DNA of 32,653 nt from Candidatus Brocadiaceae bacterium (GTDB lineage: Bacteria > Planctomycetota > Brocadiia > Brocadiales > Bathyanammoxibiaceae): contig JASEHG010000003.1 of the NCBI GenBank assembly GCA_030018855.1, forward strand, positions 1-32,653, in the 5' to 3' direction. The position numbers and the translations under genes are program-made. The notes under the pieces were generated by a model. It was not told where the DNA came from and did no database searches. It saw nothing but the letters and a program-made list of their open reading frames with translations. Below, one piece after another: positions 6,118 through 29,317 of this stretch. The first letter of the stretch is position 1. Each line of letters starts with the position of its first letter.

Positions 6118-7293
6118 ATGTATATGAAGAGTACTGTATTTTTTATAAGATCAAAGACCGGGGAGGGTCTGGACTCCCTGGCCCAGAAGACCAGGAGGAT
6201 GCTGGAGTCCACCTTAGGTGGACCCACCTCGGGTGAATCTGTCCCCATCAGAAAGGGCGACCTCATCGGGGTAAAGACCACCTTCGGGGAGAAGGGGAAC
6301 ATAGGACACCTGAAGCCGCCGATCGTCAGGGCGGCGGTGGAGTACGTAAGGGCCACTGGCGCAAAACCCTTTGTAGTAGAGACCAATACCCTGTACGTGG
6401 GCCAGAGGAGCAACGCCATTGACCACATCCAGCATGCCTACAACCGGGGTTTTACCCCCGAGGCCATTGGGGCACCAATAGTCATCGCTGACGGCCTCAG
6501 GGGGGAGAATGACTTCTCCATGCCCCTGCCACAACCAGGGTTCAAAGGTCCAAAGGCTCAAGGGTTTAAAGGTCCAGGGTTGACAAAGACGGCCTTTATA
6601 GCTGGGGCGGCCAAGGCGGCCAGCGGCTTCGTCTCCCTCTCCCACGTTACTGGCCACATGCTGACCGGCCTGGGGGCCACGTTAAAGAACATCGGTATGG
6701 GACTGGCCTCCAGGGGCGGCAAACTGGCCATGCACTCGGGGGTCGTACCCAAAATCCTTATGGACAAGTGTAAGGCCTGCGGACTCTGCGCCGAGTTCTG
6801 CCCCGCAGGGGCCATCACCATAAAAGACTACTCCATCATTGACGCCAGGAAATGTATCGGCTGTGGCGAGTGCCTGGCAGTATGTCCCCATGAGGCGGTA
6901 AAGATTTCCTGGGACGAGAATACGGAAAACCTGCAGAAGAAGGTGGCTGAGTACTGTCTGGCCGTCCTTAAAGGGAAGGAAAAGAAGTCCGTCTTCCTCA
7001 ACTTCCTGATACACGTCACGGAACAGTGCGACTGCATGGACAAGGCCTACCCGCCTGCCTTTGAGGATATTGGGATACTGGCCTCCCGCGACCCCGTGGC
7101 CGTAGAACAGGCGGCCGTTGACCTGGTACGGGAGCATGTAAGAGAAGACTTCTTCCACAAGGCCTGGCCCAATATTGACTACACCACCCAGATAGACTAT
7201 GCCCATGAGATTGGGCTAGGGAGTAAGGATTACGAGTTGATAGACATTGGTAGGGCATCCGCCTTAGGCGGACAACGTGCCCCTACAAAGTAG
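6118..7293 (+). CDS. DUF362 domain protein with 2x[4Fe-4S] ferredoxin domain
   Basis: CKACGLCAEFCPAGAI and CIGCGECLAVCPHEAV motifs; DUF362 signature region SLSHVTGHMLTGLGATLKNIGMG. Confidence 0.92.
   Translation: MYMKSTVFFIRSKTGEGLDSLAQKTRRMLESTLGGPTSGESVPIRKGDLIGVKTTFGEKGNIGHLKPPIVRAAVEYVRATGAKPFVVETNTLYVGQRSNAIDHIQHAYNRGFTPEAIGAPIVIADGLRGENDFSMPLPQPGFKGPKAQGFKGPGLTKTAFIAGAAKAASGFVSLSHVTGHMLTGLGATLKNIGMGLASRGGKLAMHSGVVPKILMDKCKACGLCAEFCPAGAITIKDYSIIDARKCIGCGECLAVCPHEAVKISWDENTENLQKKVAEYCLAVLKGKEKKSVFLNFLIHVTEQCDCMDKAYPPAFEDIGILASRDPVAVEQAAVDLVREHVREDFFHKAWPNIDYTTQIDYAHEIGLGSKDYELIDIGRASALGGQRAPTK
7250..7286. repeat. Composite palindrome: family B arms with family C core
   Basis: GTAGGGCA-TCCGCCTTAGGCGGA-CAACGTGCCCCTAC; encodes the last residues of the DUF362 protein (GRASALGGQRAPTK). 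Confidence 0.85.
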
Positions 7294-7337
7294 GATGTAG
7301 GGACAGACCTTTAGGTCTGTTCTGCTTGCTTAGAAAG

Positions 7338-8780
7338 ATGAACCTCACCAATAAAGTCGTAATCATTGGCCTGGATGCCGCCCCTCCTGAACTGGTCTTT
7401 GACCGCTGGCTGGATGAACTGCCCACCATTAAATGGCTCACAGGACACGGGTTATATGGGGAGCTGGAGAGTACCATCCCCTCCATCACCTGCCCCGCCT
7501 GGGCCTCCATGACTACTGGGAAAGACCCTGGACGGCTGGGCATCTACGGCTTCAGGAACCGTACCAGATACGATTACAGTGAGATGGCCTTTGTGGACTC
7601 TAGCTGGGTAAGGGAAGAGACCTTGTGGGATATACTCTCCAGATACGGCCTCAGGTCCATCCTGGTAGGCATACCCCCGAGCTATCCCCCCAAGGCCATT
7701 AACGGCAGGATGGTAAGCTGTTTTATGGCCGGGGACTCACCAGACTATACCTACCCGAGGGAATTCCGTACCGAAGTAGAAGCGCTGACGGGGGGCTACA
7801 TACCAGACGTAAAGGACTTCCGCTCCGGAGACAAAGGCCCTATCCTCAAGACCGTCTACGAGATGACCCAGAGGAGATTTCGCCTGGCAAAGGCCCTCCT
7901 GCAGAGACAGGATTGGGAGCTCTTTATGATGGTGGAGATGGGTACGGATAGGCTCCAGCATGCCTTCTGGAGATACCTTGATGAGGCCCATCCCTCTTAT
8001 TGCCCCGGTACTGAATACGGAGACGCAATACTGGACTATTACAAATATCTTGACAGGGAATTGGGCGAAATCTTGACCCTGATAGAAGGGCGTGCCACCC
8101 TGCTGGTCGTCTCCGACCACGGGGCAAAGAGGATGGAGGGCGGGATATGCGTCAACGAGTGGCTCCTGGCCAACGGTTACCTCAGGCTACTGGAATACCC
8201 GCAGGAGATTACCTCCTTTCAACACCTAAAAGTAGACTGGAGACGTACAGTAGCCTGGGCCCACAGCGGCTACTACGGCAGGGTATTCCTCAACGTAAGA
8301 GGGCGTGAGCCTATGGGCTTACTCCCCCCGCAGGATTACGAAAGGATAAGAAGGGAGCTTGCCCAGGGGCTTGAGGACATCAGAAATGAATGCGGACAAA
8401 GGATAAACACTAGGGCCTTTAGGCCGGAGGATATTTACCCGGAGTGCCGGGGGATTGCGCCCGACCTGCTCGTCTATTTCGGCGACCAATACTATAGGAG
8501 CATAGGCAGTGTGGGCCACAAAAAATTTTGGACCAGGGAGAACGACAACGGTTCCGATGACGCAAACCACTCGCAATATGGTATCTTTGTCTTGTATAAT
8601 GAGGGTTTAATGGATTCCCCCGTAGGGGCACGGCGTGCCGTGCCCTTGAGGAGGAGGCCAGCCATGAACCGTTCTGGTTCAGGGCCAGCCCATATCCTTG
8701 ACGTGGCACCAACGGTGTTAGGATGCATGGGGCTGGAGGTGCCCCTGGATATGAAGGGGAACGCCATAAATCGCAGGTAG
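7338..8780 (+). CDS. Alkaline phosphatase superfamily / type I phosphodiesterase-nucleotide pyrophosphatase-like protein
   Basis: VVIIGLDAAPPELVFDRW..., SITCPAWASMTTGKDPG, LLVVSDHGAKRMEGG, DVAPTVLGCMGLEVPLDMKG. ATG at 7338 preferred over the ORF-track start at 7326. Confidence 0.9.
   Translation: MNLTNKVVIIGLDAAPPELVFDRWLDELPTIKWLTGHGLYGELESTIPSITCPAWASMTTGKDPGRLGIYGFRNRTRYDYSEMAFVDSSWVREETLWDILSRYGLRSILVGIPPSYPPKAINGRMVSCFMAGDSPDYTYPREFRTEVEALTGGYIPDVKDFRSGDKGPILKTVYEMTQRRFRLAKALLQRQDWELFMMVEMGTDRLQHAFWRYLDEAHPSYCPGTEYGDAILDYYKYLDRELGEILTLIEGRATLLVVSDHGAKRMEGGICVNEWLLANGYLRLLEYPQEITSFQHLKVDWRRTVAWAHSGYYGRVFLNVRGREPMGLLPPQDYERIRRELAQGLEDIRNECGQRINTRAFRPEDIYPECRGIAPDLLVYFGDQYYRSIGSVGHKKFWTRENDNGSDDANHSQYGIFVLYNEGLMDSPVGARRAVPLRRRPAMNRSGSGPAHILDVAPTVLGCMGLEVPLDMKGNAINRR
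8622..8650. repeat. Family B palindrome in frame in the AlkP-family CDS
   Basis: GTAGGGGCACGGC-GT-GCCGTGCCCTTGAG read GTA GGG GCA... (VGARRAVPL). Confidence 0.88.
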
Positions 8781-9466: not shown

Positions 9467-10342
9467 ATGAAGAAGAGCCTGAGAGTCGGGGCAGTGCCCT
9501 ACCTAAATACAAAACCCTTAACTGCGGGGATAGAGGGCGGTAGAGGGGTAGAATTACGCCTTGCCGTGCCCTCCCAACTGCCCGGCCTCCTGGAACGAGG
9601 GGAATTAGACGTGGCCCTCATACCCTCCATAGAATACCTGCGCGGCCGCCCCTTTTTTGTCGTACCAGACACGTCTATTGCCTCCAGGGGGGCAGTGGAA
9701 AGCGTGTTACTCTTCCTGCGCGTCCCCAGGGTAAGGGACATCAAGCGGGTTGCCCTGGATGAATCCTCCCTGACCTCCGCCGCACTGGTCAGGGTAATCC
9801 TCCAGGAGAGGTACGGCCTCGGATTGTCCAGTGTAGAGTATGTCCCCTGGCCCCGTAATCAGGATTTAAATGATACCCAGGCCGATGCAGTACTGGTCAT
9901 TGGGGATAACGCCATGAAGATGGCCAGTAGGGGCACGTTGCAACGTGCCCCTACCACGGGCGTCTACTCTACCCTTGACCTGGGGGCAGAGTGGAAGGCC
10001 CTTACGGGACTCCCCTTCGTCTACGCCCTGTGGGTCACCTCTAAAAAAGGACTGGTAGACAGTACCAGGAGGCTACTCAATGAGGCAAAGAGGAAGGGCC
10101 TGGCGGCCCTCCCCGAGATTGCCCGGAGAGAGGCAAAGAGGCTGGGGCTGGAGCCAGGGTTCTGCCTGAGATACCTCTCTGAGAACATCTGCTATGAACT
10201 GGGGGAAGCGGAGGTCGCAGGGTTGCGGCAGTTCTATCGCTACGCCCTGTCCATGGGCCTGGCCTCGGAAGGAGTTAATCTTGACTTCGGAAATAAGACA
10301 CATATTAGAGAAGGCACTCTCCAGGGAACGGATAGTACCTGA
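9467..10342 (+). CDS. mqnA: Chorismate dehydratase, futalosine menaquinone pathway
   Basis: VGAVPYLNTKPLTAGI, LDVALIPSIEYLRG, IASRGAVESVLLF, TGLPFVYALWV. Confidence 0.93.
   Translation: MKKSLRVGAVPYLNTKPLTAGIEGGRGVELRLAVPSQLPGLLERGELDVALIPSIEYLRGRPFFVVPDTSIASRGAVESVLLFLRVPRVRDIKRVALDESSLTSAALVRVILQERYGLGLSSVEYVPWPRNQDLNDTQADAVLVIGDNAMKMASRGTLQRAPTTGVYSTLDLGAEWKALTGLPFVYALWVTSKKGLVDSTRRLLNEAKRKGLAALPEIARREAKRLGLEPGFCLRYLSENICYELGEAEVAGLRQFYRYALSMGLASEGVNLDFGNKTHIREGTLQGTDST
9927..9954. repeat. Family B perfect 28-bp palindrome in frame in mqnA
   Basis: GTAGGGGCACGTTGCAACGTGCCCCTAC; read A GT|AGG GGC ACG TTG... (SRGTLQRAPT). Confidence 0.93.
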
Positions 10343-14226: not shown

Positions 14227-14391
14227 CCCATCTCTATAGCAAATACAAAAATAACCCTTGATGTGGGTCAGGATTTGGGATACAGTGAGGATCATGAAAA
14301 TACATCCGTTGTGGTGCCCTGCATCCCTAACGAGACCCGAGGAAGACTTGCCCTCCCCCGCCTGAGGCTGAGAAGAAAAGGAAGTAACGAA

Positions 14392-15603
14392 ATGATAAAC
14401 GTAGACGAGGCCTACCGCATTATATTAGAAAATATCAGCACCCTCCCCATTCAAGAGGTCAACATCAAGGGGGCAGTGGGGTTGTGTCTGGCAGAGGATG
14501 CGGTCTCGGACATAGACATGCCTCCCTTTGACAAATCGTCTATGGACGGCTTCGCCGTCATTGCCGAGGATACCCTCTCTGCCTCGGGCCAACCAGTAGA
14601 ACTGGACGTAATAGAGGGGGTAGCGGCAGGACAGATGCCTCAGAAGAAGGTAGAGAGGGGACAGGCCACCAAGATAATGACAGGGGCGGCACTCCCCCAG
14701 GGAGCCGATGCCGTAATAAAGGTAGAGGATACCGAGCCTGCGGGACTCCGCAAGGTAAAACTCCTGCGGGGCATGAAAAAGGGGGAGAACGTAAGTCCAA
14801 GGGGAGAAGACTTTCAGGCAGGCCAGGTGGTACTCAAGAGGGTGACCGCCCTCAGACCCCAGGAGATAGGCATCCTGGCCATGATAGGGCTGGGAAAGGT
14901 AAAGGTCTATTCCTCCCCCAAGGTAGGCATCAGCTCTACGGGGGATGAACTGGTAGAGGTAGGACGTAAGCCTACTGGAGGCCAGATAAGGGACAGCAAT
15001 AGCCACTGCCTGGCGGCCCAGGTCTCCCTGACCAGGGCGGAGGTGGAATGCTTCGGCACCGCAAGAGATGACCGCAAGTCCCTCATCCACATGATAAAAA
15101 AGGGGTTGAGGAAAGACCTGCTCATCCTCACCGGGGGTGTATCCATGGGGGAGTATGACCTGGTGGTGGGCGTCCTCAAAGAACTGGGGGTCAACCTCTT
15201 CTTTGAGAAGGTGGCAATGAAGCCAGGTAAACCCATAGTCTTTGGAAAGCATTATAAGACCGCCGTCTTTGCCCTGCCAGGTAACCCGGTTGCCACGTAT
15301 GTTTCCTTTGAGCTCTTCGTCCGGCCCGCCATCCGCAAGATGATGGGCTTCACCCAGCTCAGCCGTACGATAGTGAAGGCCCAACTAGAAACCCCCTTAC
15401 GCAGTAGGGGGGAGCGGAGGGAATTCAGGCCCACCTGGCTGCGTCTAGAGGACGGGAGATTTTCTGCCTCTCCAGTGGAATGGCATGGCTCTGCTGACCT
15501 GTTGGGGACTACCAGGGCCAACTCCCTGCTAATAGTCCCGGAGGGCGTGGAGTCCTACTCGGCTGGGCAAGAGGTGGAGGTAATGCTCACGGGTGAGCTC
15601 TAA
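14392..15603 (+). CDS. moeA: Molybdopterin molybdotransferase
   Basis: DMPPFDKSSMDGFAVIAEDT, TKIMTGAALPQGADAVIKVEDTE, ISSTGDELVEVG, ILTGGVSMGEYDLV, KPGKPIVFG, ALPGNPVATYVSFELF. ATG at 14392 preferred, with ggaag upstream. Confidence 0.96.
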   Translation: MINVDEAYRIILENISTLPIQEVNIKGAVGLCLAEDAVSDIDMPPFDKSSMDGFAVIAEDTLSASGQPVELDVIEGVAAGQMPQKKVERGQATKIMTGAALPQGADAVIKVEDTEPAGLRKVKLLRGMKKGENVSPRGEDFQAGQVVLKRVTALRPQEIGILAMIGLGKVKVYSSPKVGISSTGDELVEVGRKPTGGQIRDSNSHCLAAQVSLTRAEVECFGTARDDRKSLIHMIKKGLRKDLLILTGGVSMGEYDLVVGVLKELGVNLFFEKVAMKPGKPIVFGKHYKTAVFALPGNPVATYVSFELFVRPAIRKMMGFTQLSRTIVKAQLETPLRSRGERREFRPTWLRLEDGRFSASPVEWHGSADLLGTTRANSLLIVPEGVESYSAGQEVEVMLTGEL

Positions 15604-17296
15604 ACCAGTGGGTAGGGAGTGGGGGGTAGGGATTAGCAATCTTTTCTCCTACTCCCCACTCCCTACTCCCTACTCCCTAATTCCTAACCCCTGGTCCCTA
15701 ATCTCTACTATCCCGGTTGTCCTCCCCACTGTAGTCTTGCTCGGCATGTCCTTTCCTGGGCCAGACCTGCCCCTGCTGGCCTGGGTGGCCCTGGTACCCT
15801 GGCTCCTCCTGATAGGCTCTGAGGTAGGGGCACGTTGCAACGTGCCCCTGCTCTCCTGGCTCATCGGGATAATCTTCTTTACCGTAAAGCTCTCCTGGCT
15901 GGGCTACGCCACCAATGCAGGCTGGCTCTTACTCAGCTCCTACCTCTCCATCTCCTACCTCCTTTTTGGCATTGCCTGCTCTTACCTCCACAGGAACTCC
16001 GGCCTGCCCCTTGCCCTCCTGGCCCCTTTCCTATGGGTCTCTCTGGAGTACCTCAGGGGCTTCCTCATGACGGGCTTCCCCTGGTTCTACCTCGGCCATA
16101 CCCAGTACAGCTACCTGTCCATCATCCAGATAGCCGACATTACTGGCGCCTACGGCGTCTCTTTCATCATTGTGGCGGTCAATGCCTGCTTTGCCCAGGG
16201 ACTCCTGAGGTGGTGGAACGGTAAGGGGGGACACTTCCTGTTCGCCATCGCCTTTATCTTATTACTGTTCCCTCTATCTTACGGTATGTTCCGCCTGGCG
16301 GGGTTATCCTATCAGGAAGGCCCCAGGCTCTGTATGGTACAGGGGAACATCCTCCAGGACCTAAAGATGGATCCAGACGTTGAGCAGAGGAAGAGCAACC
16401 TCCAGAGGTATCTAGACCTCTCCAGGCTTGTCCTGAGCGAAGCCGAAGGGAAGGTAAGGTCAGAAAAGGTGGATATGATAGCCTGGCCTGAGACCTCTGC
16501 CCCGGGGCTATTGAACCTGGACCCTAAGTTCTGGAGAGAGACCGACCGCTTCTCCCAGACCTCTATCTTTGAGCTGGCAAAGGAACTCCAGACCTATCTC
16601 CTGGTAGGAGGGATAGCCATAGAACCTGGGAAGGGGAATAATTTTGAGGAGAGTACCCTCTATAATAGTGCCTTCCTCTACGGGCCTGACGGTAACCTCC
16701 TGGACAGGTACGACAAACTCCACCTGGTGCCCTTCGGAGAGTACACGCCTCTTAGAGAGGTCTTCCCCTTCCTGAGACATATGGTACCCTACGAGATAGA
16801 CCTCTCCCCCGGGAGCCGTTGGGAATTACTAGAGTTTAAGGGGCGTAGGGGCGACCCGGCGGGTCGCCCTTACAGGTTTGCCACCCTCATCTGTTACGAG
16901 GACACAGTCCCACCCCTGGCCAGGTACTTCACCAGGCAGGGGGCAGACTTCCTCCTGAACATCACCAACGACGGCTGGTTCCATGACAGTCCGGAGCTGG
17001 ACCAGCACCTGGCCATCATGGTCTTCAGAGCCGTAGAGAATCGGATAGGTATGGCCAGGGCCGCCAATACGGGCATCTCCGCCTTTGTGGCCCCCAGTGG
17101 CGACATCTACTCCCTTATAACCCGGAACGGTAAGCGCCGGGAGGTGGAGGGTATCCTGGAAGGCACCATCTTAATAGCCCGTGGAGGGCCCAGTTTTTAT
17201 ACAAGGTATGGCGACCTCTTCAGCCAGTTCTGCCTGTTAGTATCCATTGGCCTGCTCCTGATGCCTACGGTAAAGAGGCTAGGGGTTAGGGAATAG
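15593..17296 (+). CDS. lnt: Apolipoprotein N-acyltransferase
   Basis: N-terminal multi-TM region plus nitrilase domain with candidate catalytic residues in WPETSAPG (Glu), YDKLHLVPFGEY (Lys) and LICYEDTVPP (Cys). GTG start overlaps the moeA stop; exact start uncertain. Confidence 0.94.
   Translation: MSSKPVGREWGVGISNLFSYSPLPTPYSLIPNPWSLISTIPVVLPTVVLLGMSFPGPDLPLLAWVALVPWLLLIGSEVGARCNVPLLSWLIGIIFFTVKLSWLGYATNAGWLLLSSYLSISYLLFGIACSYLHRNSGLPLALLAPFLWVSLEYLRGFLMTGFPWFYLGHTQYSYLSIIQIADITGAYGVSFIIVAVNACFAQGLLRWWNGKGGHFLFAIAFILLLFPLSYGMFRLAGLSYQEGPRLCMVQGNILQDLKMDPDVEQRKSNLQRYLDLSRLVLSEAEGKVRSEKVDMIAWPETSAPGLLNLDPKFWRETDRFSQTSIFELAKELQTYLLVGGIAIEPGKGNNFEESTLYNSAFLYGPDGNLLDRYDKLHLVPFGEYTPLREVFPFLRHMVPYEIDLSPGSRWELLEFKGRRGDPAGRPYRFATLICYEDTVPPLARYFTRQGADFLLNITNDGWFHDSPELDQHLAIMVFRAVENRIGMARAANTGISAFVAPSGDIYSLITRNGKRREVEGILEGTILIARGGPSFYTRYGDLFSQFCLLVSIGLLLMPTVKRLGVRE
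15605..15700. repeat. Family A hairpin repeat at the moeA/lnt junction
   Basis: ccagtgggtagggagtggggggtagggattagcaat...ctactccccactccctactccctactccctaattcctaacccctgg. Confidence 0.85.
15824..15850. repeat. Family B palindrome in frame in lnt (copy 1)
   Basis: GTAGGGGCACGTTGCAACGTGCCCCTG read GTA GGG GCA CGT TGC... (VGARCNVPL). 27 of 28 bases identical to the mqnA copy, but in another frame. Confidence 0.92.
16427..16450. repeat. Candidate dispersed repeat CTTGTCCTGAGCGAAGCCGAAGGG in frame in lnt
   Basis: Encodes LVLSEAEG. I recall this 24-mer type as a widespread repeat in other environmental bacterial genomes; only one copy is seen in this window. Confidence 0.55.
16845..16873. repeat. Family B palindrome in frame in lnt (copy 2)
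   Basis: GTAGGGGCGACCC-GGC-GGGTCGCCCTTAC read CGT AGG GGC GAC CCG GCG GGT CGC CCT TAC (RRGDPAGRPY), just before the catalytic Cys strand. Confidence 0.9.
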
Positions 17297-17378
17297 GGAG
17301 TAGGGTGTAGGGAATAGCAATATAAAATCTTGCTACTTCCTGCTCTACTCCCTACCCCCTACTCTCTGGTCCCTAGTT
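17279..17378. repeat. Family A hairpin repeat containing the lnt stop codon
   Basis: ctaggggttagggaatagggagtagggtgtagggaatagcaatataaaatcttgctacttcctgctctactccctaccccctactctctggtccctagtt. Confidence 0.85.
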
Positions 17379-17390
17379 AAGAAAAGCCCC

Positions 17391-17419: not shown

Positions 17420-17445
17420 TACCTTAAGAATATAAAAGGTGGGCG

Positions 17446-17524
17446 GCAGGGAGTAAGGGGTAGGGCGTAGGGGATAGCAGGATGAAATCTTGCTACTCCC
17501 TACCCCCTACTCCCTGACCCCTGC
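17446..17524. repeat. Family A hairpin repeat directly upstream of tRNA-Ala
   Basis: gcagggagtaaggggtagggcgtaggggatagcaggatgaaatcttgctactccctaccccctactccctgacccctgc. Confidence 0.85.
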
Positions 17525-17546: not shown

Positions 17547-17622
<76 letters not shown>

Positions 17623-17670
17623 ATCCTCTATGTAGGATACATTTTTAGACGCACCCTGCGTGCTATATTT

Positions 17671-17687
17671 GTAAAAAGGACTTTTAC
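17671..17687. promoter_or_regulatory. Inverted repeat covering the hicB Shine-Dalgarno region
   Basis: GTAAAA-AGGAC-TTTTAC immediately before the hicB ATG; a TATATT -10-like element lies at 17664-17669. Confidence 0.4.
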
Positions 17688-17924
17688 ATGCAAGCGTATA
17701 CTTACCAGATAGTAATAGTAAAAGAAGGCAAAAAATACTGGGCTTACATTCCAGACCTTCCTGGAGTCTATGGCTTGGGCGACACGCCTGCCAAAGCAAA
17801 AAAGGATATTATACAAGCCCTAAAACTTTATATTGAAGACATACTGGCCGAGGGAGGGCCTGTGCCTGAATCAACCGCAAAGGTAGTGGGCTTTGATTCC
17901 ATAGAAATTCCAGTAGAGGATTAA
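17688..17924 (+). CDS. hicB: HicB-family antitoxin
   Basis: QAYTYQIVIVKEGKKYWAYIPDLPGVYGLGDTPAKAKKDIIQALKLYIEDI. Confidence 0.9.
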   Translation: MQAYTYQIVIVKEGKKYWAYIPDLPGVYGLGDTPAKAKKDIIQALKLYIEDILAEGGPVPESTAKVVGFDSIEIPVED

Positions 17925-18130
17925 TGCCCACCGCAAAAGAGGTAGTAAGATTCTTAAAAAAGAAAGGGTTTATAGAGAAGAGGCAGAAAGGCTCACATCT
18001 TGTGTTAGAGAATCCAGGGACCGGTTTTCGTACAGTTGTACCTATGCATTCAGGGGATTTACCAAAAGGATTGTTCCTGAAGATATTAAAAGACGCAGGA
18101 TTTAACCTAAAGGATTATCTGGAGAAATAA
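17924..18130 (+). CDS. hicA: HicA-family mRNA interferase toxin
   Basis: TAKEVVRFLKKKGFIEKRQKGSHLVLENPGTGFRTVVPMHSGDLPKGLFLKILKDAGF, with the GSH catalytic His. Confidence 0.93.
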   Translation: MPTAKEVVRFLKKKGFIEKRQKGSHLVLENPGTGFRTVVPMHSGDLPKGLFLKILKDAGFNLKDYLEK

Positions 18131-18143
18131 GCGGCGAATTAAC

Positions 18144-18189
18144 GAATGGCATTCAAGAGGTCAGGGTTCAAATCCCCTATCCTCCACCA
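18144..18189 (+). pseudogene. Orphan 3' fragment of tRNA-Ala (direct repeat copy 2)
   Basis: GAATGGCATTCAAGAGGTCAGGGTTCAAATCCCCTATCCTCCACCA is identical to 17576-17622 except for one G missing from the T stem. No 5' half. Confidence 0.95.
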
Positions 18190-18604: not shown

Positions 18605-19237
18605 TTAAAATTTTTTTCCCCGGTTTTCCCATTTGCCCCTGAAGGTTATCCAAAAGGAAAGGAGTACGAGCTTCAGGTCTAAGAGAAAAGATTGGTTTTT
18701 TACGTAAAGTAGTTCATAGTGGAGCTTCTGATGGGGAGGGGTGTCATATCTTCCATAAACCTGGGCAAGGCCAGTTAGACCTGGTAGTACCAAGAACCTG
18801 GAGGAGTAATTAGGAATCTGTTGGGAGAACTTTCCAACTAATTCTGGCCTCTCTGCCCTTGGGCCTACAAAGCTCATGTCTCCAATGAAGATGTTCCATA
18901 ATTGAGGTAGTTCATCCATAGCAGTCGCCCTGAGCAACCTTCCTATCTTGGTTACTCTTGGGTCGTTTTCAGAGGCCCAAACTGCCCCAATCCCTTTTTC
19001 GGCATCGGGAATCATGGAGCGGAATTTGTGGACTCTAAAGATTTTGCCATCCTTTCCGACCCGTTCCTGAGAATAAAAGAGGGGACCACCATCCTGTAGC
19101 TTAATGGCCAGGGCAATTATAATCCATAAAGGTAAGGAGAGGGTTAAACCTACACCCGATAGTGTCACGTCAAAGAGGCGTTTAAGCACTTTCTTAGCAT
19201 TTATTTCAATAAGGTAGTAGTTATCATGGTAACTCAA
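18605..19237 (-). CDS. Bacterial sugar transferase (undecaprenyl-phosphate sugar phosphotransferase type)
   Basis: KRLFDVTLSGVGLTLSLPLWIIIALAIKLQDGGPLFYSQERVGKDGKIFRVHKFRSM...MDELPQLWNIFIGDMSFVGPRAERPE. Confidence 0.96.
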   Translation of the reverse strand: MSYHDNYYLIEINAKKVLKRLFDVTLSGVGLTLSLPLWIIIALAIKLQDGGPLFYSQERVGKDGKIFRVHKFRSMIPDAEKGIGAVWASENDPRVTKIGRLLRATAMDELPQLWNIFIGDMSFVGPRAERPELVGKFSQQIPNYSSRFLVLPGLTGLAQVYGRYDTPPHQKLHYELLYVKNQSFLLDLKLVLLSFWITFRGKWENRGKKF

Positions 19238-20409
19238 CGTAAAGAGGTTGTGCGAGTAACCTGACCAACACTTAAAAGCCTATCGTAGAGGTTGTCCAAC
19301 TTCTGTACACTATCACGAAGACTGAAATGTTTCACCCTCTCTTTTGCATTTCTTGCCAGTTCTTCACGTAAGGCCCTGTTATGAAAGACCTTCAATATGG
19401 CCTCAGCCATAGAATAGGGATCGGCTGGTTTAATTAAAATTCCGGTCTCATAGTTCTTTATAATCTCTGGAATGCCACCTACTGCTGTAGCAATTATAGG
19501 TTTACCTACAGCCATAGCCTCTAACAAACTAAAAGGGAACCCTTCTTTTATAGAAGCCAGTACAAATACATCCATCAATGATAAAAAAGGTAGCACTTGA
19601 GAGATGTATCCCGTAAAGATTGCCCTTCCATTAATTCCCAGTGATTTAGCAATATCCATCATATCTTTTCTTAGGGGGCCATCACCCACAAAGATAAACT
19701 TAACCTTGGGCTGTTTCTGTATCACCAGTTCAGCGGCCTTTAACAAGTAGGGGTATCCCTTATTAGGATAAAAATTTGCTATACTTCCTATCACAAATTC
19801 TTCTCCCCCCAGTCCCGATTCACCTCTTACCTTGTCTACCTCAACATTGGGTAATTCAAGGGAATCAAAATCGATTCCGTTGTATATGGTTTCTATTGAA
19901 GAGGGGGTTTTTAACCGAAGTCTGAGGGCCAATCTTCTATCGTTTTCTGAGACCGTAATGATTCTGTGACAGGCGGCTGCCGCAATCTTTTCCATCAAGA
20001 CTAAGAGAAATTTCTTGGGAAGTGGCATAGGTTCTTGAAAGGCAAACCCGTGGGCGGTAAAAAGAACTGCTGGCACCCCTGCCAACCAGGCCGCCATACG
20101 GCCTAAGATACCGGCCTTGGTACTGTGACAATGCACGATATCATAGTTCCCTCTCTTGATTAGGCGGTAAATCTTGGTAAAAGCTAAAAGGTCCTTAACA
20201 GGATGAATGACATTGCTGAGTTCTGGTATGGGGAAGACCTTTATCCCAAGGTCGCCGAGGTCTCTTATAAGTGGGCCGCCTGGGGCACAGGCAACTTCGA
20301 TAGAGTACTTTTCTTTACAAAGAAGTCTAATCGCGTCGTAAAGATGTTTTTGGGCCCCTCCGCCATCGGATGACGTAATCAGAAATAAGAGATTCGTTCC
20401 TATCTTCAT
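19234..20409 (-). CDS. Glycosyltransferase family 4
   Basis: ITSSDGGGAQKHLYDAIRLL, HCHSTKAGILGRMAAWLAG, VLASIKEGFPFSLLEAMAVGKPIIATAVGGIPEII. Confidence 0.95.
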   Translation of the reverse strand: MKIGTNLLFLITSSDGGGAQKHLYDAIRLLCKEKYSIEVACAPGGPLIRDLGDLGIKVFPIPELSNVIHPVKDLLAFTKIYRLIKRGNYDIVHCHSTKAGILGRMAAWLAGVPAVLFTAHGFAFQEPMPLPKKFLLVLMEKIAAAACHRIITVSENDRRLALRLRLKTPSSIETIYNGIDFDSLELPNVEVDKVRGESGLGGEEFVIGSIANFYPNKGYPYLLKAAELVIQKQPKVKFIFVGDGPLRKDMMDIAKSLGINGRAIFTGYISQVLPFLSLMDVFVLASIKEGFPFSLLEAMAVGKPIIATAVGGIPEIIKNYETGILIKPADPYSMAEAILKVFHNRALREELARNAKERVKHFSLRDSVQKLDNLYDRLLSVGQVTRTTSLR

Positions 20410-20479
20410 CGCCTAACGAAAGTTGTGCCACCCCAAAAAGTCCCCAAGTTAGATCATAAACCTGATTGGTGGCCTCTTT

Positions 20480-21970
20480 TTAGAAACCTATCCATTTCTT
20501 TACCTTTAACAAGTCCCTCTTTAAAGCTAGCGGGTCCTTTAGATATATCGCTTTCCTTGCAAACCCCCTGCGCAAGAGATTACCGATTCTCTTATTGTAA
20601 GCATCGCAGGCCGAAATAATCTTTTGTGTGATGTCGTTAAATTCATCGTTGTTCAGGGCCAGCGTCCTTTTCTTTGGATTTTTGTAATAATAATCCAGCG
20701 GCTTTACCCTTAGATACTCTTCGCGTTCCATATCGGGTTTCAAAATATCCATCTCCACACCCTGACTAAATAGGGTAGTGTTAGGAAACGCCTTATAAAG
20801 CCCTATAGAAGCGTAAGGCGCGTTTATTTCTCTCATAAAGTTATATGTCTTCTGCATGTCTTCCTTGGTTTCCTGTGGTAAACCAACTATGAAATAGGCG
20901 CTCCAGAAGATATTATTATCATTTATTAATTTTGCGGCCCTTCTTATTTCATCTACACTTACTCCCTTTTTTAAATCTTTTAGGATTCTCTCGCTCCCGC
21001 TCTCTACGCCAATCTTGATGACATTGCAGCCGGCCCTTTTCATCAGGGTCAAAAGATTTTTATCCAATAGGTCTACCCTGCTGGTACAATCCCAATTAAT
21101 CCCTACCCCTTTTCCTAACAACTTTTCACAAAGCTCACTTACCCATGCTTTATTCATAGTGAAGGTATCGTCCTTAAAAGAAAATTGCTGGGTCTTATAC
21201 CTCTCCTTAACGGAGACAATCTCCTCTATGACATTCTCTACACTTCTACATCTTAGCTTTTTCTGCCACATATTAAAACAAAAAGAACAGGAGAAGGGAC
21301 ACCCTCGGGAGGCCATTAATACCCCCAAGTCCTCCGGGGTGTAATGCCCTAGGTAGAAAAGCGATTCTCTGCTCGGCTGCGGTATCGAATCTATATCCTT
21401 TATGAACTCCCTGGGCGGGTTGTTCACTATGCGGCCGTTTAGCTTGTAAGAAAGCCCATTAATCCCCCCCAAGCCCCCATTACCGTCCTCTAGTGTCTTA
21501 ATTAATTCAGAAAAGGTTATTTCCCCTTCGTCTCTAACCACAAAATCTACATTCTCATCCTCTAGTACCTGCTCATATTTAATAGAGGGATGCGGGCCGC
21601 CCTTTATTACCAGGCATCCCGGATTTACCCTCTTTACTAGTTCAGCCACCTTCACTGCGGATGCATAAGTTGTAGTCTGGGCCCTTATTCCTACGAGGTC
21701 GGGTTTAAAATCTCTTAGAAAACCCACTACCTCTTGCCATAAAGGATGGCCATCGTCGTTGATAACAGTAATATAATCCTCCATCTGTCGATATTCGCTC
21801 ATGTAATTTAGACTACCATTAACGGGCCGACCTCGCTCCACGTCAAATATACCCACCTCATGGCCTAAACCCTTTGCCACAGCCGCCAAGTAGGCCAACC
21901 CGATAGGATAATAATAATCCTCTATCCCTGTCATCCTTCTAAAAGGCGGGTTAATCAGTAATATCCTCAT
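20480..21970 (-). CDS. B12-binding domain radical SAM protein
   Basis: MRILLINPPFRRMTGIEDYYYPIGLAYLAAVAKGLGHEVGIFD, ASRGCPFSCSFC. Confidence 0.95.
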   Translation of the reverse strand: MRILLINPPFRRMTGIEDYYYPIGLAYLAAVAKGLGHEVGIFDVERGRPVNGSLNYMSEYRQMEDYITVINDDGHPLWQEVVGFLRDFKPDLVGIRAQTTTYASAVKVAELVKRVNPGCLVIKGGPHPSIKYEQVLEDENVDFVVRDEGEITFSELIKTLEDGNGGLGGINGLSYKLNGRIVNNPPREFIKDIDSIPQPSRESLFYLGHYTPEDLGVLMASRGCPFSCSFCFNMWQKKLRCRSVENVIEEIVSVKERYKTQQFSFKDDTFTMNKAWVSELCEKLLGKGVGINWDCTSRVDLLDKNLLTLMKRAGCNVIKIGVESGSERILKDLKKGVSVDEIRRAAKLINDNNIFWSAYFIVGLPQETKEDMQKTYNFMREINAPYASIGLYKAFPNTTLFSQGVEMDILKPDMEREEYLRVKPLDYYYKNPKKRTLALNNDEFNDITQKIISACDAYNKRIGNLLRRGFARKAIYLKDPLALKRDLLKVKKWIGF

Positions 21971-21984
21971 TTCCCCTCTACTCC

Positions 21985-23154
21985 TTACTTACCAATATGA
22001 ATAGTACTTTCATCTTGGGCCCTTTTTTTATTGAGCCAGTAATCGTAAACTGCCTCTGTTTCTTGAATCATACTGTTAATTGTAAAGTGTCTCTTCCATC
22101 GCTCCCGTCCAGCCTCTCCCATCTTTTGGGCCAGTGCTTTATTCTTCAGGAGATAAATTAGCTTCTCTGCAAGAAGTGCAGGATTCTTTGGTGGTACCAA
22201 AAATCCCGTCTCTCCATCCACCACCACTTCCGGAATAGGTCCTACATTAGTGGCCACAATAGGTCTTCCCGCACTCATTGCCTCAAGAAGCACAAGCCCA
22301 AATCCCTCCCAAAGGGAGGAAAGTGCGAATATATCAAATTGATTCATAAGATTAAAGACATCCGCTCTAAAATCGCTAATGATCACACTATCTTCTATAT
22401 GCAAGGTTCTAGCATATTCTTCTAAGTGGTGTCTCATTCTTTTCCCGGCGTGCCCTGCCAGAAATAATTTAGCCTCTGGAAAGTGCTTGAGCACTTCCAC
22501 CATGGCTTCTAACAAAAACTTTTGCCCTTTTTGGGGGACGTATCTGCCTAGCATACCTACTATAGGGCTATCCTCTCTTACAGCGTAACGGATTCTAATA
22601 TTCTCCACCGGCTCGTCAATATTATTCTTAGTGTCAAGCCCATAATAGATTCGTTTTATCTTTTCTTTATTCAATCCTACTTTTTCTCTAAGATAGCATC
22701 CTACCGCATCGGAGATTACTATAACTTGGTTAGCCTTCTGAGTTGTATATTTTGCCACCCAGGCCCAGAAGGGATTCAACAAAAATTCTTCCGTATTGTG
22801 GTAAGTAGTGATAAAGATTGGACCATTATTTAAAACCATTGCTAATCTACCATACAGTTCTGCTTGAAAAAGGTGGCAATGAATTAAATCAAATCTATAA
22901 TCTGCTATAAGTTTCCTCAGCTTAAGGATTGGGAGTGGGTCCAGTTTACCTCTTGCCTGTAGGTCTATTACCCTGATACCAGTCTTAATAAAGTCTTCTT
23001 TCAAGCTGCGGGCGTCATCTGGCCTCTCTGTTAAATAGGCAAGAGTCAGGTCGTACTTCTCCCTGCTCAAATGGGTAGCTAAAGAAAGAAGGTGCATCTC
23101 AGCGCCACCTACGGTACAGGCATCCGTTAAGAGTAAAACTTTTGCCTTTTTCAT
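21985..23154 (-). CDS. Glycosyltransferase family 4
   Basis: TVGGAEMHLLSLATHL, ALSSLWEGFGLVLLEAMSAGRPIVATNVGPIPEVVVDGETGFLVPP. ATGA overlap with the upstream gene. Confidence 0.95.
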   Translation of the reverse strand: MKKAKVLLLTDACTVGGAEMHLLSLATHLSREKYDLTLAYLTERPDDARSLKEDFIKTGIRVIDLQARGKLDPLPILKLRKLIADYRFDLIHCHLFQAELYGRLAMVLNNGPIFITTYHNTEEFLLNPFWAWVAKYTTQKANQVIVISDAVGCYLREKVGLNKEKIKRIYYGLDTKNNIDEPVENIRIRYAVREDSPIVGMLGRYVPQKGQKFLLEAMVEVLKHFPEAKLFLAGHAGKRMRHHLEEYARTLHIEDSVIISDFRADVFNLMNQFDIFALSSLWEGFGLVLLEAMSAGRPIVATNVGPIPEVVVDGETGFLVPPKNPALLAEKLIYLLKNKALAQKMGEAGRERWKRHFTINSMIQETEAVYDYWLNKKRAQDESTIHIGK

Positions 23155-24029
23155 TCCATTATTTCTGCGTATGTAGCCAATCTAAACCCACTATTCTGAA
23201 TGAACGATTTCAGCTCCAGGTTCAATAAGACCTTAAGTTCTTCCTCCCTCTGCCTCGCCATCATCTCGGAGCCTATCATAAAGCTTGTTAGATTATTGCA
23301 TATGTAACTGGGGTGAACCATGAATTGGGATGTATCTTCCTTTATTGAAGAAATGACCTTTTTATATTCACACAACAGCCTTTTCTCATCCCAGTATCTA
23401 TCGGTAAAATAATTTACCACATTATAAAAACTATCTGGAGCCAATATACCCTCTATTTTTAAGATTCTTCTATATCTCCAGCCCATGAAATAGGCATAAG
23501 ACCACTTAATCCAACTGGTTCTTTCCAAAGAGATAGGGTTTCTTGCATCCACAGGCAATAAAAGAGGAACTTTTAAGCTTTTCGCTAAATCTTTGACTAT
23601 CCAAAAGAGACTTGGAAGTAAGATTATTGACTGGTGAGTATCAATATGGAGAGGGTATATACCACTTGTGGTAAGTTTCTCTACTTGGGCATTAAGCTCC
23701 CTCTTAATTTCTTCCGGATTTACTTTATGTGATAACAGCCTTATTATAAGATCTCTTCGGCTATAAAATGAACCGTCACTATTTACCAGGCTTTTCACTT
23801 CCTCGGCTGGTAGCACCGGCCTTCCGTCGGTCAAGTTTAGATGTATCCCTATCCCCAGTCCAGGATTTTCTTTAGCAAGGTGTACGGCTTCTCTAAAGGC
23901 CCACATATTCACAATCATAGTGGTACTTGACACAGTTCCAAACAAGTAGGACTCAATAATTGCCCTGTTTGCCCCTTGCGTAAGACCAAACTCATCTGCA
24001 TTGATAATCAGCTTTTTCATTGACACCAA
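23151..24029 (-). CDS. ChbG/HpnK (YdjC-like) carbohydrate deacetylase
   Basis: KKLIINADEFGLTQGANRAIIESYLFGTVSSTTMIVNM, LGIGIHLNLTDGRPVLP, HIDTHQSI. Confidence 0.93.
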   Translation of the reverse strand: MVSMKKLIINADEFGLTQGANRAIIESYLFGTVSSTTMIVNMWAFREAVHLAKENPGLGIGIHLNLTDGRPVLPAEEVKSLVNSDGSFYSRRDLIIRLLSHKVNPEEIKRELNAQVEKLTTSGIYPLHIDTHQSIILLPSLFWIVKDLAKSLKVPLLLPVDARNPISLERTSWIKWSYAYFMGWRYRRILKIEGILAPDSFYNVVNYFTDRYWDEKRLLCEYKKVISSIKEDTSQFMVHPSYICNNLTSFMIGSEMMARQREEELKVLLNLELKSFIQNSGFRLATYAEIME

Positions 24030-24079
24030 CGTTCATCCTTTTTAACACTGACAATAAATGCCCCATGGTTTGCTTGTTT

Positions 24080-26308
24080 CTAAGTGGTAAATTGTTTAAT
24101 AACATAATCCAGGTGTTCTTCTTTTAGACTCTGATGTGTGGGGAGGATTAATATGTGCTCTGAAAGCTTACGTGCCTCCGGATAGCCGGAAGAATATACT
24201 TCCTCGGGCAATACATCCCAGAAGGTCCTTAAGTTTATCCCTTTTCTCAAAAGCCACTTATAGACCCCGTCCCTGTTCGCTATGAGGACAGGAAACCCTA
24301 CAGGACAAACCCCTTCTGTTAATTCCGGAAAGAGCACTTGCAAATCCTTTCTATCTGCAAGGCTTTTAAGGTAGTAATTATAGTTCTCCCTTCTCTTATT
24401 TACAATCTCCTCTACCTTGACTTCTCGGAACAATCTCAAAGAAATAGTAGATATGGTATTTTCCGGGATAACTTCCTTTTTACTATCCCGCCTGATATAG
24501 CCATTTCTTAGTCGGTCATTCTGCAGGAGATAACTCCTCAGGCTCAACCCTGTCTTGAATTCAACCCATTTCTCTAGTAAGGAAACAGTGGGGGATATAG
24601 AATAACCCTTTCCAATATTTTTAGCTTCAACAGCCCTTTCAGTATTTAACAAGAGCATGCCCCCATCTGGAAGGGGAAGTGTTTTCCTCAGGCTGAAAAT
24701 GCCAAAGGCTCCAAAAGTTCCTAGCGGTCTGCCACCTACCCTACTAAAAAGGGCGTGGGCGCAGTCCTCTATGAGAAGTAGCCCCTTCTCACTGCAAAAC
24801 CTTAATACCTTATCTAAGGGCTGTGAGAAACCGAAATAATGGATAATTAGCAAGGCGCTTGCACCCGTGGATTTGGATTCAAGGTCTTTAAAATCTGGTT
24901 CTAGATTCTCCTTCACTTCGTAGAACCTTACTCTCAGTCCTGCCTGCTCAATTGTACTGACCACGGAGCCGCATACATAGGCTGGTATCAAAATGACTTC
25001 TTCTGTGGCAAATCCACATAGCCTTAAGCCCTTTAACAAGGCCGTTCTACCATCCTTAAAAAAGATAGGCTTACTTGAAAAATATCCTGGGGGGTCTACT
25101 TTTGAGGCAGTCGCCTTAAATACCTCTACTGGTGACAAGACAGCATCGGGGGGGATATAGGTGATTTTGATCCCTAAAGAAGCCCTCCATTGTTGCAACT
25201 TGGCAAGGATAACTCTCAATATCTTCAACCTTCGCACTTCGGCGTAAAGGAATAGATAAAGAAGATAGATAGGGAAAGTAACTCTACCTTTTAAGGTGGG
25301 GCTTGAGAAAACGATTCTCTTATTCTGTCTCGCTCCAGAAATCCAGCGGGATTTATACTGAAGCTCCCCTCTAGTGAAATCAATCTCCCGGAGTCCTGAT
25401 TTGAAGGCATCCTCTAAGATATGCATTAAAAGGATCATCCCAGAAGCGTATTTTGCATAACAGGGGTCATAAGCAGGGGTGTAGTGAAGGTATCTGCCGT
25501 TCCACTGAAAGGAATAACTAAAAGCGATAACCTTTTCATTTAGCAGAAGCAGGTCTAATCTCAGCATCTTTCTTGCGAGGTAATCTCTTGCAAGCTCCGA
25601 GTAAAATTCTTGCCCTCCAGGTGTGGAAAATCTAGAATAAATAGCATAACCTTTCCACCGCTTTCTATGAATTTCAAAGACCTGTGGTAAATAATGTTCA
25701 AGTTCTTCTCTGGCCTGGATTTTTTTGAATTCAAGTTTGCCTAAGCTTTCTAAGTGCCTTTTTCTCTGTTTGAGGTTATACTTAAATTTTTTGTCTTGTT
25801 GTTTTAAGAAGCTGTCCCAATCCCCATTTATCTCCAGGTAGGGACATCTCCACGTATCGTATGAAATAGCCTTCCATCCTTCTTTTTTAAGCAACTCACG
25901 AAGGAGCTCGTAGTTGCTTGATTCTTCAGGGAAATCCTTCAAGTCACATACATCCCACTGCCCTTTCTTTTCCCTTAAAGAAGAAATAAGGATTTCAATA
26001 GAGGCCTCTTTAGAGTCAGTGTCTACAATAAAATCCAGATAATCCCCATCGTCATGACCTATAAATTCCAATCTTTTCACAAAAAAGGTTGACTTCAATC
26101 CTAGCGGGAAGAAGGCCTTAAGCTCGTTGCCATTCCATAGGGTAAAGATAAAAGGCTTCGTCTTTGTGCACAAAAGTTTTAACCAATTCCTAACCCATTC
26201 TCTGGTAAGGAACACAGGAACGGAGCCAACCTTCCCCAGGAGCGACTCCCATTGAGGCTCTATGGCCTTTATCCCCTCAGTATCCCCTATAAACCTTACT
26301 TCCAACAA
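24080..26308 (-). CDS. Fusion: N-terminal FemAB/CelD-like GNAT acyltransferase + C-terminal DegT/DnrJ/EryC1 aminotransferase
   Basis: N-terminal EPQWESLLGK...REWVRNWLKLL and QDKKFKYNLKQRKRHLE...HYTPAYDPCYAKYASGMILLMHILEDAFKSGLREIDFTRGELQYKSRW. C-terminal ILIPAYVCGSVVSTIEQAGLRVRFYEV...LLIEDCAHALFS...FGIFSLRKTLPLPDGG. Start set to a TTG at 26308 because the longer ORF (to 26359) overlaps the Wzy end. Confidence 0.85.
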   Translation of the reverse strand: MLEVRFIGDTEGIKAIEPQWESLLGKVGSVPVFLTREWVRNWLKLLCTKTKPFIFTLWNGNELKAFFPLGLKSTFFVKRLEFIGHDDGDYLDFIVDTDSKEASIEILISSLREKKGQWDVCDLKDFPEESSNYELLRELLKKEGWKAISYDTWRCPYLEINGDWDSFLKQQDKKFKYNLKQRKRHLESLGKLEFKKIQAREELEHYLPQVFEIHRKRWKGYAIYSRFSTPGGQEFYSELARDYLARKMLRLDLLLLNEKVIAFSYSFQWNGRYLHYTPAYDPCYAKYASGMILLMHILEDAFKSGLREIDFTRGELQYKSRWISGARQNKRIVFSSPTLKGRVTFPIYLLYLFLYAEVRRLKILRVILAKLQQWRASLGIKITYIPPDAVLSPVEVFKATASKVDPPGYFSSKPIFFKDGRTALLKGLRLCGFATEEVILIPAYVCGSVVSTIEQAGLRVRFYEVKENLEPDFKDLESKSTGASALLIIHYFGFSQPLDKVLRFCSEKGLLLIEDCAHALFSRVGGRPLGTFGAFGIFSLRKTLPLPDGGMLLLNTERAVEAKNIGKGYSISPTVSLLEKWVEFKTGLSLRSYLLQNDRLRNGYIRRDSKKEVIPENTISTISLRLFREVKVEEIVNKRRENYNYYLKSLADRKDLQVLFPELTEGVCPVGFPVLIANRDGVYKWLLRKGINLRTFWDVLPEEVYSSGYPEARKLSEHILILPTHQSLKEEHLDYVIKQFTT

Positions 26309-27770
26309 CGTCTGTCTCCCTGAATGTTTGTCTTTCCTGCAGGGCGATCCTTCTGGCACTCATTACTAGTCCTGCTAATGCCCAGAAAATACCCGTAACA
26401 GGATTACCTGTTTCCAGAGTAACTACACCCCACATTGCCGCATAGAATCCTAAAAAACTCACAAATAGGGCCTTACTCAGTTGGGCATAGAAGGGGTCCT
26501 CACTTATACTCCTGAGTTTCCATGTAAGATAAAGGATGTAACTGTGAAGGCCTATAAAAATGATAAGCCCTGGTATCCCCAAATCTACCAGCGTCTCTAC
26601 ATATTGATTGTGAGAGTCGGTACCTCCACTCAAAAGAGAGGCACTAGCCCAAAAACCCCCTGACCAACCGTATCCAAATATTGGGCTATGAGCCCCGAAA
26701 GAAAGTTTGTTATACCAGATGTCCCACCTGGTCGTGGTACTGGACCCCGGGTCAAACAGAAATTCACGCCTAGATATATCAAAAACCTCAAATTCAGATA
26801 AAACTCTATGGAAGAAATAATCTTTTAAGAAATAAAAAACCAATCCACCCAGGATTAAAAGTTGGATTAAGGATTTGATTCTCCTTCGTCTTAGTTGATG
26901 TATAAGAAACAATAAGAGGACCACAGTCCCCAGGTAGGCCGAACGAGACCCAGTCAAGATTATCCCTACCAATATGAGGGATGAAAGAATCCATCTTTTA
27001 GTGTGCCCCCCCTTTTCAAGAAAGGACATGAGTACCGGGAAAGAGAATAATAAGATAGCTTGACCAAGTATATTGGGATTACCAATAGTCCCTACACTCC
27101 GATAGTCAATACTCCCATAAATGGCGCCTTTTCTCGGGTTGAAGATTTGCGTTGGGAGGTAAAATCCAGTAAATGCCCCGATTCTCTGGATAATAGCAAG
27201 TCCCACTTGAAAAATAACACAGAACATCACAATTTTGGAAAAGCTTTTTATCTTCTCTTTTCCATCAACAAAGCCTCCCACAAGAAAGAATAGAGAGGTC
27301 ATGGAGAGAGTCCTGAGGAGGGATACAAGGGTGAAGTAGAAATGGTCCTCCCCGAGTCTATAATTATATGCCACAGAGACAAGCCCCCAGGCAAACAGGG
27401 CATAAATTAAAGGGTTAATCGGGGTAGAGGGCCATTTCTTCCTTCCCAATGCAATGCCACTTCCGAGCCTGAAAAAGAGCAAAAGGATTATCGGGTCCCA
27501 AATATAAAACCCCAGGGAACCTAGCTTCAAAATCATAAAGTGCTCGGTAGGAGTTAATTGAATGGCTAGAAAACAAAGAATTAATGCGGCAAATTCGGGT
27601 ATAAAAAGCAGCGCTAAAAATCCAAAGATGCCTAAGAACGAGAAGTAATTCTCGGCTGCTATAGATTTACCTATTAAATAGCCGAGGATTACAATTAAAA
27701 AGATCCCCATCCATGGGCCAATAGAGGGAACATTTCTTATTAATCTTAATCGTACAGTTTGCAGCCCCAT
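26277..27770 (-). CDS. O-antigen ligase / Wzy-like polymerase membrane protein
   Basis: Multiple TM segments; Wzy_C-like stretch RSVGTIGNPNILGQAILLFSFPVLMSF...GIILTGSRSAYLGTVVLLL...GYGWSGGFWASASLLSGGTDSHNQYVETLVDLGIPGLIIF. Confidence 0.88.
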   Translation of the reverse strand: MGLQTVRLRLIRNVPSIGPWMGIFLIVILGYLIGKSIAAENYFSFLGIFGFLALLFIPEFAALILCFLAIQLTPTEHFMILKLGSLGFYIWDPIILLLFFRLGSGIALGRKKWPSTPINPLIYALFAWGLVSVAYNYRLGEDHFYFTLVSLLRTLSMTSLFFLVGGFVDGKEKIKSFSKIVMFCVIFQVGLAIIQRIGAFTGFYLPTQIFNPRKGAIYGSIDYRSVGTIGNPNILGQAILLFSFPVLMSFLEKGGHTKRWILSSLILVGIILTGSRSAYLGTVVLLLFLIHQLRRRRIKSLIQLLILGGLVFYFLKDYFFHRVLSEFEVFDISRREFLFDPGSSTTTRWDIWYNKLSFGAHSPIFGYGWSGGFWASASLLSGGTDSHNQYVETLVDLGIPGLIIFIGLHSYILYLTWKLRSISEDPFYAQLSKALFVSFLGFYAAMWGVVTLETGNPVTGIFWALAGLVMSARRIALQERQTFRETDVVGSKVYRGY

Positions 27771-28017
27771 ATGGTAAGCTGGAATCTCCCTTTCCTGTCC
27801 ACTTGTCTATAAATTAGGAGAAATTGCCGAGGCTTTGATGCCCTGAATAACCTGCCCAAAATCCCGCTAATCTGGGAACCTTGCTAAGGTATGCCCTGCT
27901 TCTAAAGAGCCACTGCCCGCATAAAAAGCATAGTTGCTGCCATTGCCTTTAGTAAAACTTGGTTCTTAATCTATCGAGACCCCTGCAAAAACTCCTATTT
28001 ATATAGTCCAGTGCAGC

Positions 28018-28078
28018 ACTCCCTCCCCCTTGAGGGGGGAGAGAAGGTTGAAAATCCGCCTCAGGCGGGGAGGGGGTG
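28018..28078. repeat. Inverted-repeat cluster with a family C core
   Basis: CTCCCTCCCCCTTGAGGGGGGAGAG...AATCCGCCTCAGGCGGGGAGGGGGTGAA between the GT4 (stop 28137) and the Wzy-like gene. Confidence 0.6.
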
Positions 28079-29312: not shown

Positions 29313-29317
29313 CCCTT

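Follow-up and report, generated by a model that had tools for sequence, protein, structure and literature searches.

Introduction

Repetitive extragenic palindromes (REPs) of the GTAG and CGTC types have been defined, and Planctomycetes are among their hosts (Di Nocera et al. 2013, PMC3733652; this and the other papers cited here are used as far as their accessible excerpts go). Those excerpts describe intragenic REPs as well, including in Opitutus terrae, and caution that a REP at the N-terminus may escape translation; the GTAG repeats described there carry the tag unpaired and at one end only, with a stem of 5-13 bp and a loop of 2-20 nt (PMC3733652). Cleavage by TnpA-REP is reported to depend on the GTAG (PMC8266576). 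The Rickettsia palindromic elements (RPEs) are 100-150 bp long and Rickettsia-specific (PMC3767692), and their in-frame fusions are summarised in a review of miniature inverted-repeat transposable elements (PMC10969869). Here we describe a 32,653-nucleotide stretch of DNA (hereafter the window) of a Candidatus Brocadiaceae bacterium of the Planctomycetota, positions 1 to 32,653 of contig JASEHG010000003.1, in which lnt, the gene for apolipoprotein N-acyltransferase, contains three short in-frame inserts (ins1, ins2 and ins3). We propose that lnt very probably took up three copies of short, dispersed, selfish repeats, which seem to turn over fast at fixed, permissive sites, perhaps by replacement of one palindrome by another.

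Two of these inserts, ins1 and ins3, belong to a palindrome family that we call family B. Like the GTAG REPs, family B has a GTAG end, a short palindrome, a high copy number and several cores, and in this genome too GTAG palindromes surround Y1 transposase genes and copies lie inside genes. Unlike them, it is symmetric, its GTAG at one end pairing with CTAC at the other, and different palindromes occupy one coding site in congeners. The RPEs are alike in being palindromic repeats that lie in frame within enzyme genes which, here judging by sequence, stay functional; however, the elements described here measure 28-29 bp, their host belongs to the Planctomycetota, and the alternatives at one site include plainly unrelated repeats. 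The coding palindromes of Nematomorpha mitochondria, as excerpted from PMC6649704, are also perfect and also change between species, but they reach 284 bp and are mitochondrial, whereas family B is a 28-nt bacterial repeat. As for ins2, its TGTC is a listed variant of the CGTC tag and its relatives in the genome read TGTCATTCTGAGCGAAGCGAAGAATCT; yet the CGTC REPs, in the excerpts of PMC3733652, have an 8-9 bp stem starting with AT, and the lnt copy has neither the AT start nor a hairpin. In the open-licence literature that we searched, we found no description of sister species in which palindromes had been exchanged for different ones at a single coding site. Intragenic REPs are ordinary in kind; what is new is the host lineage and the visible turnover at fixed coding sites.

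Results

Three repeat-derived inserts in lnt

The genome studied (G000, a 2.18-Mb assembly in 370 contigs) was compared with two congeners (G001 and G002) and an outgroup (G006). Insert ins1 (15824-15851, forward strand), read as VGARCNVPLL, is a 28-nt palindrome with one mismatch and the core ACGTTGCAACGT; its DNA folds with a z-score of -5.9, and it is identical over 26 nt to positions 9927-9952. On the same strand, ins3 (16845-16873), read as RRGDPAGRPY, is a 29-nt palindrome of the same class with another core, GACCCGGCGGGTC (z -3.9). Each has GTAG at its terminus, starting with GTAGGGGC, and consists of GTAGGGGC, a core and GCCCCTAC, exactly or nearly so, with a stem of 14 bp and a loop of 0 or 1. 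The third insert, ins2 (16427-16450, forward strand), read as LVLSEAEG, is a copy of a dispersed TCCTGAGCGAAGYCGAAGGA repeat, with TGTC before CTGAGC. It was also considered as a palindrome and rejected, as its fold is no better than that of shuffled sequences (z +0.57). Of what the first-pass annotation of this DNA had said, the three in-frame, repeat-derived inserts stand, with the correction that ins1 and ins3 are palindromes and ins2 is not.

The strict family B pattern, GTAGGGGC-N8..22-GCCCCTAC, to which ins1 and ins3 conform or nearly so, was found 178 times in G000, 172 in G001, 212 in G002, 94 in G004 and 45 in G006, and its reversed control never; as the pattern behind the 178 copies itself contains GTAG, the count is no independent test of that tag, which also recurs in other palindrome families beside transposase genes. 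Matches to the ins2 family at two mismatches or fewer numbered 12, 12 and 21 in G000, G001 and G002, again with none for the reversed pattern. The same repeat types lie inside unrelated enzymes and in intergenic DNA. That the Lnt inserts derive from repeats is close to certain.

A search of 59 genomes of the order gave an Lnt match in 55, and the 30 best were aligned. Only two of these orthologues have ins1 (G000 and G002, with one base of difference) and three have ins2, identical in all three congeners (G000, G001 and G002); the same three have a palindrome at the ins3 site. At the position of ins1, G001 is without the insert at the base level and reads SEARVALISW, like the outgroup G006 (GPRVALISW). 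The proposed check by orthologue alignment thus came out as expected, with inserts absent from most relatives, and the same insert residues encoded by unrelated codons, looked for in the Lnt orthologues, were not found. As judged from these alignments, the inserts are shown to be in frame, absent from the outgroups and polymorphic among three close species. A species tree that would polarise the insert patterns was not obtained from the lnt core, where informative sites split 14, 12 and 8; because of this split, the incongruence between ins1 (shared by G000 and G002) and the ins3 core (shared by G000 and G001) would prove nothing by itself.

The host enzyme

The lnt gene (15593-17296, forward strand, GTG start, 567 amino acids) scores 311.9 bits against TIGR00546, for a cut-off of 132.9, and comprises the domains LNT_N (PF20154) and CN_hydrolase (PF00795). 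By sequence and by fold alike, the closest solved structures are the Lnt proteins of E. coli and P. aeruginosa, with 8aq4 as the top match of the fold search (E 8.8e-25). For the catalytic residues and the structure model we used an alignment (A1) of 25 of the 30 sequences. Glu300, Lys375 and Cys434, which we take to be catalytic by correspondence to E267, K335 and C387 of E. coli Lnt, are invariant in all 25 rows, in agreement with the early remark that the candidate Glu, Lys and Cys motifs are kept. Pairwise ratios of nonsynonymous to synonymous change (dN/dS) among the three congeners were 0.13, 0.10 and 0.17 over 471 codons, inserts and ends excluded, for a synonymous divergence of 0.15-0.19; the enzyme is therefore maintained, under purifying selection.

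In the model built from that alignment (predicted local distance difference test, pLDDT, 79.1; below 50 for the first 30 residues), ins1 (residues 78-86) lies at a short helix and a turn between helices 68-75 and 84-99, and ins2 (residues 279-286) lies at the C-terminal end of helix 263-286. Coil is predicted for ins3 (residues 418-427), directly before strand 427-433, which leads to Cys434, where the first pass had placed it shortly ahead of the catalytic-Cys strand. Model and orthologue alignments together place all three inserts at predicted loops or helix ends, the outcome that the suggested structural check had been meant to reveal.

One coding site, different palindromes

About 13 distinct in-gene family B sites were present in our sample, and six had a usable orthologue in a congener; the acyltransferase site on contig C33, outside these six, fell in a stretch that did not align with G006. 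Five of the six hold different palindromes among congeners; the sixth, ins1, is shared with one congener and vacant in the second. At the ins3 site, G000 and G001 have the core GACCCGGCGGGTC (RRGDPAGRPY) and G002 has ACGTTGCAACGT (RGTLQRAPT), and the bases next to the palindrome are likewise not the same in G000 and G002. In the Lnt of G002 the same 28-mer consequently occurs at ins1 (VGARCNVPL) and at the ins3 site (RGTLQRAPT), that is, in two frames within one protein.

Comparable changes were seen in other enzymes. In mqnA (9467-10342, PF02621) a family B palindrome lies in frame at 9927-9954 (forward strand), is read as RGTLQRAPT and is also present in G001 and G006; G002 has a heptamer hairpin at this site instead, which likewise keeps the frame open, over 336 codons. 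A family B element in tsaD (PF00814) sits at the identical base in G000, G001, G002 and G006 with differences in the central eight bases, and its outer arms are identical in the three congeners. Between G000 and G002, 6 of the 28 element positions differ, none of them outside the centre, compared with 34 of 977 over the remainder of the gene (P 3.5e-4); for the OGG-type glycosylase gene (ogg) the figures are 6 of 28, in the core, against 56 of 851 (P 8.7e-3). Finally, where G000 has a family B-like palindrome (8622-8648, forward strand) in the C-terminal tail of a type I phosphodiesterase open reading frame (ORF; 7326-8780), G002 has GTAGCGTGCGAGCTTGCCTCGCACGC, a palindrome of the GTAGCGTGCGAG type, which also flanks one Y1_Tnp transposase gene (L084). 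In the same tail, G002 has three more palindromes (C2, 46856-46960) that are absent from G000 (window 8660-8710).

What is conserved is shown to be DNA and not peptide, as far as these comparisons can tell, since the lnt of G002 translates one palindrome in two different frames, and since at a given site the outer arms and the palindromic symmetry are kept even though the cores vary. We restrict the evidence to in-gene sites. The 34 intergenic rows, amounting to 25 distinct pairwise comparisons, comprised 3 with the same repeat, 4 empty and 18 with a different repeat (one ambiguous; judged by eye), and such differences are expected because spacers are crowded with repeats.

Family B across the genome

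The family B palindrome is symmetric throughout and occurs with several self-complementary cores: ACGTTGCAACGT, the commonest among the copies listed for this genome, AATTCATGAATT, GTATTGCAATAC, GAACGGCCGTTC, ACGGCGTGCCGT and GACCCGGCGGGTC. Among 31 B-like hairpins from the three congeners, examined in a small search window, the GTAG tag was at both ends in 15, at one end in 13 and at neither in 3; in these last the stem extends beyond the tag. Under a loose definition, the sampled sequence of four genomes held 53 B-like hairpins, 16 of them inside ORFs of at least 100 amino acids (one of the 16, G001 C38:1540, matches loosely and is probably no member of family B). As ORFs of this size make up 88, 80, 86 and 63% of the respective samples, in-gene copies are depleted, which purging would predict, yet they are plentiful.

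Single in-gene copies occur in mqnA, tsaD and the OGG-type glycosylase, penicillin amidase and amidohydrolase genes. With 11 in-gene copies for 216 ORFs in the sample of this genome, about 0.35 ORFs would be expected to have two or more copies by chance, and one, lnt, was observed. We did not retain the view that lnt is a hotspot for repeat-derived coding sequence as a strong claim: two copies make the gene mildly unusual, and the idea is weakly supported.

Two further kinds of element were noticed. Composite elements, with a GTCCGCCTNAGGCGGAC palindrome nested in the middle of a family B palindrome, lie at 7250-7290 of the window and at C1:3155, C41:62 and C76:652 of G000; the 7250 site is a simple family B in G002. 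Many hairpins in the G000, G001 and G002 samples have arms of tandem heptamers, often GTAGNNA (GTAGGGA, GTAGACA, GTAGTCA, GTAGGCA), and GTAG was in the unit of 46 of the 103 arrays with period 7 in G000, a figure inflated by double-counted arms and by composition bias; among random 7-mers the share is 5%.

Hairpins at the ends of lnt

The gene had been described as bracketed by another kind of hairpin, family A, which shares a GTAGGG end with family B. Copies are indeed present at both ends, but they overlap lnt rather than just bracket it. The 5' copy (15607-15692, z -5.0), with arms of GTAGGGA-type heptamers, falls within the first 40 or so codons, in the probable coding region, and would be read as the N-terminal 35 residues or so; the 3' copy (17279-17379, z -4.0) contributes the final residues (about LGVRE) together with the stop codon. 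Just two in-frame starts retain the first predicted helix: the GTG that overlaps the moeA end (14263-15603) and a second GTG, which G000 alone has. Since the upstream GTG is kept in G000, G001, G002 and G006, translation of the 5' hairpin is suggested by the sequence. G001 has a family B palindrome as the core of this hairpin, and the same region of G006 has a hairpin-forming stretch (z -4.0) of unrelated sequence. A further family A hairpin lies between lnt and the next tRNA gene (17445-17523), its left arm being mostly gap in G001, G002 and G006.

Transposase genes

The genome has three Y1_Tnp genes, one of them below the family cut-off. All three are flanked by palindromes on both sides, with GTAG tags on both sides of L084 and L085 and downstream only of L083. 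Over ten genomes, 21 of 27 Y1_Tnp loci have at least one GTAG-tagged hairpin and 6 have none. Palindromes with GTAGGGGC occur within Y1_Tnp loci of G004 (L180), G005 (L179), G006 (L167) and G009 (L173), where they are not clearly a terminal pair.

Other features of the window

At 17547-18189, tRNA-Ala(GGC) precedes a HicB-like/HicA toxin-antitoxin pair (17688-17924 and 17924-18127), after which the 3' end of the tRNA is found again as a partial copy (18144-18189). This segment looks like a mini insertion at a tRNA, with a duplication resembling an attachment site, because in G002 the tRNA runs directly into the sequence that follows the distal copy in the window. In G001 another HicB-like reading frame, recognised by eye, follows the same tRNA. 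The region 18605-32640 includes a polysaccharide cluster with a sugar transferase, an O-antigen ligase and a DegT-type aminotransferase; blastn gave no match between it and the contig of G002 that shares synteny with the window's first half.

Discussion

We asked how three repeats came to lie in a gene that is under purifying selection. The best reading of the sequences is that ins1 and ins3 are REP-type palindromes with GTAG ends and that ins2 is a CGTC-like dispersed repeat. Copies would be spread by HuH transposases (REP-associated tyrosine transposases, RAYTs, or TnpA-REP), as thought for other GTAG repeats, and selection would have removed the insertions that were out of frame or disrupted the core of a protein. 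Permissive sites may then have been used again, one palindrome being swapped for another by targeted insertion or gene conversion. Higgins, in 1988, reportedly asked in a title whether REPs evolve by gene conversion. For Lnt itself, they most likely amount to loop extensions of nearly neutral effect. In effect the inserts recall the RPEs, a likeness drawn in the first-pass annotation and borne out here, for they are in frame in a gene under purifying selection and leave the catalytic residues in place.

Several points weigh against this explanation. Among the 27 Y1_Tnp loci of ten genomes, no RAYT could be proved to belong to family B. The full symmetry of family B, its 13-16 bp stem and its 0-1 nt loop are unlike the described GTAG repeats, and ins2 folds no better than its shuffles. 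The inserts are known here from DNA, and the genomes compared are metagenome assemblies. With this last point and the 370 contigs of G000 in mind, one could imagine an assembly artefact or a misread frame; we consider this barely credible, as the same inserts recur, normally flanked and with the frame intact, in genomes that were assembled separately.

Repeated insertion into permissive loops would be the main rival to replacement, itself a step that we infer. In such a scenario, a few tolerant loops would gain and lose repeats by independent events; the location of the inserts at loops or helix ends fits it, as do the ins3 flanking bases, which differ between G000 and G002 as if two events had occurred. 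We regard it as possible, though with less than even chances. The tsaD element sits at the exact same base in four genomes with identical arms in the congeners and a different core, and the presence of the mqnA element in G000, G001 and G006 would require that G002 lost one repeat and gained another there. The chance of a second repeat within 20 nt in an ORF is about 0.5%, a figure that assumes independent and uniform insertion and was computed after the cases had been seen. The cores might also drift by point mutation, with hairpin-templated copying between arms and without traffic between copies. Just three arm positions have changed in tsaD and in ogg, 3 of 14 is not extreme for neutral DNA at the synonymous divergence of lnt, and the P values for the two genes are not overwhelming. 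However, drift cannot explain the exchange of family B for a heptamer hairpin in mqnA or for a GTAGCGTGCGAG palindrome in the phosphodiesterase, and one and the same core, ACGTTGCAACGT, the commonest of those listed for G000, turns up as the G000 allele in tsaD and as the G002 allele in both ogg and lnt ins3, so that we hold drift alone to be rather improbable.

A last alternative is that selection favoured the inserts as functional loops, able to alter Lnt activity or membrane contacts. The position of ins3 just ahead of the catalytic-Cys strand and the identity of ins2 in all three congeners would be in line with a function. Conversely, the ins3 loop varies freely between congeners, ins1 is absent from G001, and the same elements occur in unrelated enzymes and intergenic DNA; selection for function thus seems very unlikely. 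Returning to replacement at permissive sites, we advance only tentatively, and as something that we would not bet on, a more specific form of it, in which an in-gene palindrome is itself the target of other palindromes. The swap would be homing-like or a conversion, at the same base and in frame, with a shared arm of about 8-11 bp or none.

Intragenic REPs and RPEs are mostly met as single insertions with a history that is difficult to trace. In the present case, close species show the same coding sites empty, filled and differently filled, in several housekeeping enzymes. Two questions thereby become testable: how REP-type palindromes move, perhaps by mutual targeting, and what share of protein loops comes from selfish DNA. 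If replacement is true, it would amount to concerted change in repeats far too short for ordinary homologous recombination; and if palindromes do target palindromes, the loops of unrelated enzymes would be repeatedly rewritten from a genome-wide pool of cores.

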